Assembly (NCBI GenBank): GCA_019358855.1
Contig: JAHHII010000013.1
Coordinates: 1-64,000, forward strand
DNA from: Timaviella obliquedivisa GSE-PSE-MK23-08B
Lineage (GTDB): Bacteria; Cyanobacteriota; Cyanobacteriia; Elainellales; Elainellaceae
Direction: 5' to 3'
Length of the DNA stretch: 64,000 nt
Below, in pieces: positions 51,723-53,336 of this stretch (its first letter is position 1; each line of letters opens with the position of its first letter). Both the position numbers and the translations under genes were made by a program. The notes beneath the pieces are model-generated. The model made no database searches. It was not told the origin of the DNA and worked only from the letters and a program-made list of their open reading frames with translations.

Positions 51723-51920
51723 ATGCTGACCTATACTTCGGCTGCTTTAGTGAGCTTGCTGTTCTCCTGGGGTTCAGTTTCTGTTGCAAAAACTGCCGAC
51801 CATACTGTGAAGTTACAAGCCGCAAACCCGTCTCAAGCCCTAGAATTGTCTTCAGCCCGATCGCCTCATTCTCTCTCTCATCGGGGCAGCGGAAGAATTT
51901 ACGATAGAGCTATTAGCTAA
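51723..51920 (+). CDS. patX: PatX-like secreted peptide precursor with a HRGSGR motif
   Basis: The 65-residue product has a signal peptide (MLTYTSAALVSLLFSWGSVS, cleavage likely after V-S-V-A), a short polar mature part, and near the C-terminus HRGSGR followed by IYDRAIS. The pentapeptide RGSGR is the active part of PatS, the diffusible inhibitor of HetR; PatX is a family of signal-peptide-bearing RGSGR proteins reported to co-occur with HetR in filamentous cyanobacteria. hetR lies 504 bases downstream on the same strand. GGAG at 51712-51715, seven bases before ATG 51723, fixes the start. An overlapping frame from 51710 ends at 51907 and has no RGSGR. Function as a HetR inhibitor is inferred. 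Confidence 0.83.
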   Translation: MLTYTSAALVSLLFSWGSVSVAKTADHTVKLQAANPSQALELSSARSPHSLSHRGSGRIYDRAIS

Positions 51921-52424
51921 CTTAATCATCTTATTAAAGAGTTAATTTAGTTATCTCTAAATCAGATGATTAGGAATAGCTCAATCTCAAGCTAATAGAG
52001 GTTGAAAAGTTTTTTGGAGTCTCTTAAATTCACAAGTTAAACTCACAAGAAAGTAGTCAGTAATCATTTATTTAGGGAATACTAAACAGGAACGTAAAAG
52101 TTTGCTGACAAGAGAAACCTGTCAGTGACTTACGTCACAGTTTACATTCATTAGTTTTGATCCATTGCTAATATTTTTTAAGAGTGATATAGCTGATCTA
52201 ATTTGTAGATCTAGGGGTAATATGGACAAGCTAGTTCAGTTTCTATCCTAGAACTAATTAGGCGATTAGTATTTAGTTTTGGTACAATCAAAGCTAAGCA
52301 TTGGTCAACTTCTGCCTTCTAAATCTCTGCTTCGTGTGACCAGGGATTCTAAGTCAGACATAATGAGCAAATTAGCTAAATCTGATGCGCTGCTTTTCTA
52401 TAACTCTTTGCGATCGCCTCCAAC
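51921..52424. promoter_or_regulatory. patX-hetR spacer and presumed hetR promoter
   Basis: 504 AT-rich bases without a gene. It contains the palindrome described at 52124-52139. A possible -10 TACAAT is at 52283-52288 (in TGGTACAATC), about 140 bases before the hetR ATG. No NtcA site GTA-N8-TAC was found by eye. Confidence 0.5.
52124..52139. promoter_or_regulatory. CRP-like palindrome upstream of hetR
   Basis: AGTGA-CTTACG-TCACA fits the CRP-type consensus TGTGA-N6-TCACA with one mismatch. The inner symmetric part is GTGAC-N4-GTCAC. It lies about 285 bases before the hetR start. Cyanobacterial SyCRP1 uses this consensus, so a cAMP link is possible but not shown. Confidence 0.4.
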
Positions 52425-53336
52425 ATGATTAAAGACATAGATCTGATCAAACGCCTCGGTCCCAGCGCCATGGATCAGATTATGCTGTATCTGGCTTACA
52501 GTGCCATGCGCACAGGCGGGCATCGGCATGGTGCTTTTTTAGATGCAGCAGCAACGGCTGCTAAATGCGCCATTTACTCAACCTATCTAGAGCAAGATCA
52601 AAACCTCCGGATGACCGGACATTTACACCATATAGAACCCAAGCGGGTTAAGGTCATTGTTGAAGAGGTGCGGCAAGCATTGACAGAGGGCAAACTCCTG
52701 AAAATGCTAGGTTCTCAAGAACCTCGTTATTTAATTCAACTGCCCTACGTTTGGTTAGAACAATTTCCTTGGCAGCCGGGTCAGTCACGGATTTCTGGAA
52801 CAAGCCTTACCCTGGAAGAAAAGCGGCAAATTGAAGAAAAGTTGCCTTCTAACTTGCCTGATGCGCGGCTCGTGAACTCGTTTCAGTTTATGGACATTAT
52901 TGAGTTTCTCCACGAGCGCTCCCAAGAAGAACTTCCTCTAGAACAGCAAATGCCCATGAGTGAGGCACTAGCAGAGCATATTAAGCGACGGGTGACCTAT
53001 TCCGGCACAGTTACCCGCATAGACTCGCCCTTTGGGATGCCTTTTTATGCCCTAACCCGCGCCTACTACTCTCCTGTTGATGAGCAGGAACGCACTTTTA
53101 TTATGGTGGAAGACACTGCACGCTTCTTCCGCATGATGAAAGACTGGGCAGACCGAGAACAGGGAGCAATGCGGGTTCTGGAAGAATTAGACATCCCTGT
53201 AGAGCAAATTCCTCAAGCTTTAGAAGAGCTTGATGAAGTCATTCGTGGCTGGGCAGACAAATATCATCAAGGGAATGGGCAGTCTTTCATTTTGCAAATG
53301 GTTGTGGGTTTTAAGGAAGAGCAATCTAATCTTTAA
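52425..53336 (+). CDS. hetR: HetR, master regulator of cell differentiation in filamentous cyanobacteria
   Basis: The 303-residue product matches Anabaena HetR along its length: [60 protein letters not shown], the flap and the hood domains. Positions tied to HetR function are kept: C48, S152, S179, R223, and the 250-256 segment RVLEELD that controls PatS sensitivity (R250, E253, E254 and D256 all present). HetR is a dimeric DNA-binding protein inhibited by RGSGR peptides. Differences from Anabaena concentrate in the tail. Adjacent patX-like and protease genes support a peptide-signalling role. No heterocyst genes are seen, and hetR also exists in non-heterocystous filaments. Confidence 0.97.

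Follow-up and report, generated by a model that had tools for sequence, protein, structure and literature searches.

PatS of heterocyst-forming cyanobacteria is a peptide of 17 residues that ends in RGSGR and is thought to be made and matured inside the cell. A second peptide, PatX, was reportedly described from filamentous cyanobacteria by Elhai and Khudyakov in 2018, and in Nostoc/Anabaena PCC 7120 it is said to be 56 residues long and to carry HRGTGR. In Nostoc PCC 7120, PatX is exported and PatP then cleaves it; HetR of this organism binds HRGTGR at 88 nM and then no longer binds DNA (PMC12756182). A 2025 study claims that PatX works only once it is outside the cytosol (PMC12756182).

The pairing of patX with hetR in non-heterocystous filaments has already been published. 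In Leptolyngbya sp. BL0902, patX lies immediately upstream of hetR, the authors think that the two are co-transcribed, and both have been deleted (PMC11298460). PMC7761841 treats as a PatX ortholog the "PatS" that Zhang et al. (2009) reportedly found beside hetR in strains without heterocysts, Arthrospira among them, and work cited there has PatX of the non-heterocystous Arthrospira blocking heterocysts in Anabaena. The outputs proposed for non-heterocystous strains are filament breakage at necridia and growth control, both conjectures (PMC7761841, PMC12756182).

The stretch of DNA analyzed here is 64,000 nucleotides long, is called the window, and holds one more example of the pair (Table 1). 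An earlier note had described an RGSGR peptide gene of 65 residues with a GGAG ribosome site upstream of hetR, all of which was confirmed in the sequence. The encoded protein is MLTYTSAALVSLLFSWGSVSVAKTADHTVKLQAANPSQALELSSARSPHSLSHRGSGRIYDRAIS (65 aa), and 504 bp separate its gene from hetR. HetR is full length, scoring 559 bits with NCBIfam NF009718 (cut-off 489) and matching PF03574 and PF18460, with the Hood domain present. Profile and alignment also bore out the residues listed in that note, C48, S152, S179, R223, and the 250-256 segment (R250-V-L-E-E-L-D256). The closest solved HetR chain, 3qod, has MRVLEELD at the same segment, and the Hood segment is invariant in the comparison set.

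Table 1. Features of the patX-hetR locus, in window positions
Feature	Position	Strand	Basis
DIF1-like promoter box TCCTGAT, 60 nt 5' of patX ATG	51663..51669	+	conservation in relatives
Second conserved block CGTATTAGGGAGTAGAA, probable -10/start region, weak left dyad arm	51686..51702	+	column conservation; dyad covariation, 25 sequences
Ribosome site GGAG	51712..51715	+	sequence, 7 nt 5' of ATG
patX	51723..51920	+	ORF translation, simulation, sister comparison, synteny
Weak Sec-signal-like N-terminus, residues 1-22, possible cut after VSVA	51723..51788	+	hydropathy of uncharged segment
HRGSGR hexapeptide, residues 53-58 of 65	51879..51896	+	silent-only differences from sister
C-terminal tail IYDRAIS, not conserved	51897..51917	+	comparison with sister and relatives
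hetR, 303 aa, intact, single copy in genome	52425..53336	+	profiles, alignment
ctpB, S41 carboxyl-terminal processing protease, 3' of hetR	53666..54955	+	NF045589 649 bits, cut-off 633

The window PatX is like that of PCC 7120 in having (H)RG(S/T)GR near the C-terminus, a putative hydrophobic N-terminus, a DIF1-type promoter within about 70 nt, and a link to HetR. It differs in carrying RGSGR rather than RGTGR and TCCTGA rather than TCCGGA, and in its weak signal segment, its tail of seven residues, and a score below the NCBIfam cut-off. It is unlike PatS in its length of 65 residues, its signal-like segment and tail, and its patX position and promoter. Leptolyngbya BL0902, another species, shares patX 5' of hetR, a predicted DIF1 promoter, the lack of a nif cluster, and a hetZ or hetZ-like gene (PMC11298460); the 504 bp spacer sets the window apart. 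The Arthrospira "PatS" likewise pairs an RGSGR peptide gene with hetR in strains reportedly lacking heterocysts, in a different lineage. The pair adds one example to a well-described module, and the comparative set is more useful than the pair itself.

The window genome (4.91 Mb, 29 contigs) is rated 100% complete. No nifH match above the cut-off was found in it, the best reaching 225 bits against the 394 that related strains pass. It possesses two strong HetZ-like matches (G000:C7:178893-179996 and G000:C4:257021-258121) and a HetP-family gene, all outside the locus. Heterocysts are very unlikely in this strain because no nifH passes the cut-off, the hetZ-like and hetP-family genes notwithstanding. 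The earlier suggestion of a strain possibly without heterocysts is thus upheld by the nifH result. That the pair forms a self-contained control unit is unsupported, because HetZ-like and HetP-family genes lie elsewhere and because DIF1 promoters in Anabaena depend on HetZ, itself under HetR (PMC7377430). The second HetZ-like gene (G000:C4) falls below the family cut-off (532 vs 612 bits), and two TCCGGA boxes are near it.

The NCBIfam PatX model NF047413 gives the window protein 11.5 bits, below its cut-off of 30, and presumably was built on other lineages. In 27 of the first 30 loci of relatives, hetR is preceded by a co-directional ORF with RGSGR. With further loci included, 34 of 36 family genomes have such an RGSGR-type gene upstream of hetR, under a common promoter block. 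The two exceptions are G014, with no RGSGR ORF within about 3 kb, and G028, which was left out for its broken hetR. Outside RGSGR, the PatX sequence drifts among relatives. The earlier note had held that poor alignment outside RGSGR and missing signal peptides would count against a PatX; the alignment is indeed poor and many relatives lack the signal. The window ORF is nevertheless classed as a PatX ortholog because of shared position, shared promoter, and selection, along with the motif, and these likewise speak for PatX where the profile falls short. In loci L023 and L141 (G014) and L140 (G057), hetR was seen without an RG[ST]GR ORF in the upstream stretch covered; patX of G014 and G057 may lie elsewhere in the genome or may have been lost. 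A hetR in two pieces, by frameshift or assembly error, was found in G028:C472 and G033:C77.

The promoter region is shared as well. TCCTGA was found 5' of every hetR-linked patX in the non-heterocystous relatives examined, at 57-67 nt from the likely ATG. The ORFs had been picked by RG[ST]GR and first ATG alone, and the estimated chance of TCC[TG]GA in 130 nt is about 6% per sequence. The sole heterocystous patX met (Dolichospermum, L050) has TCCGGA, which is the published DIF1 motif (PMC7377430). The window box is a one-base variant of it and lies within the DIF1 criterion for PatX of about 69 nt. In relatives, the second block has a consensus of approximately CGTAWCAGGGAATAGAAA and is followed by the ribosome site, the GGA of which is kept in most of them. 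In many species, the block makes an inverted repeat with the sequence that precedes the ATG, for example CCGTAACAG...CTGATACGG, which is clear in relatives and weak in the window itself. In 25 sequences, 73% of cells pair, and an offset of 1-3 columns lowers this to 24-46%. Covariation scores 0.215, compared with 0.138 for shuffles, none of the 500 reaching the observed value; common descent can, however, lift a score above that of shuffles even where there is no structure, and this structure was derived from the very sequences tested. Transcription in Anabaena starts 35 nt from the DIF1 box. The start expected from this distance falls between the dyad arms, so a protein-binding operator is favored over an RNA hairpin. 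The one-base-different box TCCTGA of this clade and the covarying dyad across the probable start are among the newer points.

Used as a search pattern, the promoter block matched in 12 of the 36 genomes, never more than once in any of them, and next to hetR wherever the contig allows a check; no further members of a wider regulon were found. The pattern misses the window genome because its block reads GTATT. The Rfam search around the locus gave no match, the promoter scan was near background, and the terminator scan was unconvincing (4 vs 2.0 expected). Neither the HetR-site pattern GGGN5CCC nor the NtcA-site pattern GTAN8TAC occurs in 51038-52424.

A signal peptide had been claimed for the window PatX. 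An uncharged hydrophobic stretch of 16 residues, AALVSLLFSWGSVSVA, is there, but it is weak (mean hydropathy 1.73), with no K or R before it. The window and its sister species have the lowest hydropathy in the signal-bearing PatX set, and the putative cut site is degraded in the sister (V21M, A22T). A signal peptide appears plausible but weak. The earlier note also thought that the tail IYDRAIS may matter. In the sister the tail is IYY, AGA having become the stop TGA, and in other relatives tails are variable or absent, with PatX ending exactly at RGSGR. Its importance is therefore unsupported, and IYDRAIS was rejected as a conserved functional element. The candidate HetR ligands from the window PatX would be RGSGR, HRGSGR, and HRGSGRIYDRAIS.

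The window patX is a real gene. It is small, has no Pfam match, and scores below the NCBIfam cut-off, as a chance ORF might. Yet in a Markov simulation of the patX-hetR intergenic stretch, RG[ST]GR arose on that strand in 18 of 20,000 sequences and in none of the 20,000 behind an ORF of at least 20 codons; a six-frame search of the 64 kb window finds it only in patX. Compared with the sister, codons 1-58 stay in frame (dN 0.078, dS 0.443, dN/dS about 0.18), unlike the 5' portion of the patX-hetR spacer, which has insertions and deletions. The HRGSGR codons differ by three silent changes and no replacements. Given simulation, purifying selection, and a position and promoter common to tens of species, a chance ORF is already refuted, with virtually nothing left to its probability. 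A decaying remnant could account for the weak signal segment, the altered cut site in the sister, and the ragged tail, but it is highly improbable at such a dN/dS, with promoter, ribosome site, and HRGSGR whole in both species. A second HRGSGR gene was sought in the window genome, and the one additional hit at the DNA level encodes HRGSGSR within a frame of 7 codons. The pattern of RGSGR plus stop, searched in ten relatives, was too degenerate to be useful; four candidates other than patX (L161, L178-L180) lacked a DIF1 box, and their reading frames did not exceed 21 codons.

With gene, promoter, selection on HRGSGR, and intact HetR observed, no nifH above the cut-off, and hetZ-like and hetP-family genes in the genome, the locus probably represents the patX-hetR module of a non-heterocystous filament, an inhibitor-regulator feedback with a non-heterocyst output. 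The patX gene would be transcribed from the DIF1-type promoter. By analogy with Anabaena, PatX would probably be exported through the weak Sec segment and cut by a peptidase, and the RGSGR-bearing peptide would bind to the Hood domain of HetR, either in the producing cell or in its neighbors, lowering HetR DNA binding. HetR, perhaps through HetZ, could in turn raise patX expression, giving an activator-inhibitor feedback. The output, by conjecture, could plausibly be filament breakage driven by necridia, or the growth state. The Sec segments, weakest in the set, the degraded cut site of the sister, and the low NF047413 score count against this module. The main contrary evidence is from BL0902, where patX and hetR deletions behave unlike those of an inhibitor and its target and the transcriptional effects of patX deletion looked hetR-independent (PMC11298460). 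PatX could instead mainly hit a non-HetR target, the genes being neighbors in separate pathways; in BL0902 the double deletion resembles that of patX, not of hetR, for two gene groups, and in the authors' judgment PatX acts for the most part without HetR (PMC11298460). Against this stand the strong co-occurrence and synteny of patX and hetR, the invariant Hood segment, and the retention of RGSGR alone while the remaining PatX drifts, which make it unlikely. A three-gene unit of patX, hetR, and ctpB, with CtpB removing the residues that follow RGSGR, is more doubtful still. CtpB belongs to the C-terminal processing proteases, and in 10 of 30 loci its gene adjoins hetR and runs in the same direction, but trimming is unsupported because PatX has no tail in 6 of those 10, and many tailed PatX have no adjacent CtpB. 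No link was found between CtpB adjacency and tails, and the adjacency follows the HetR tree, as expected of inherited gene order. It is probably just that, unrelated to PatX tails.

The pair itself is known; the unexpected part is a shrunken, signal-less PatX in several close relatives of the window strain. The screen looked for 14-18 consecutive uncharged residues, a rough substitute for SignalP, and it splits the set cleanly into PatX with a segment of hydropathy at least 1.67 and PatX with none. The segment is present in 19 and absent in 15 of the 34 family PatX; a further case, L074, is outside the family set. All signal-less PatX have the promoter box, which follows by construction of the search, and hetR downstream. 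Two pairs of them are under purifying selection, with dN/dS of about 0.16 for L016 and L022 over 51 codons and about 0.20 for L133 and L137 over 26 codons; RGSGR has silent differences only in both. On the HetR tree, the signal-less trait takes about four changes, and fewer are compatible with the well-supported branches. It is about an even chance that PatX of this family has become, perhaps on several occasions, a peptide without a signal whose synthesis and maturation both take place inside the cell. Such peptides sit uneasily with the published export requirement and offer a natural test of it. If the change is real, PatX need not always be exported, inhibitors of the PatS type evolve from it with ease, and PatX is underestimated by any survey that demands a signal peptide. 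The rules of the 2025 survey, which covered 474 genomes, demanded a Sec signal, so it would miss these genes, and they may account for part of the 12% of genomes with hetR and no PatX (PMC12756182).

Nine of the 15 signal-less PatX are 26-36 residues long, with RGSGR as their very C-terminus (L131, L133, L134, L137, and L143 of genus g5; L004, L010, L011, and L014). These tail-less forms are much like PatS. The five from genus g5 all end in AFNRGSGR or similar. A tenth short one, L005, has 40 residues and a doubtful N-terminus. The remaining five, L016, L022, L024, L026, and L136, are tailed and 48-51 residues long, and their N-terminal segment contains a charged residue or asparagine/glutamine.
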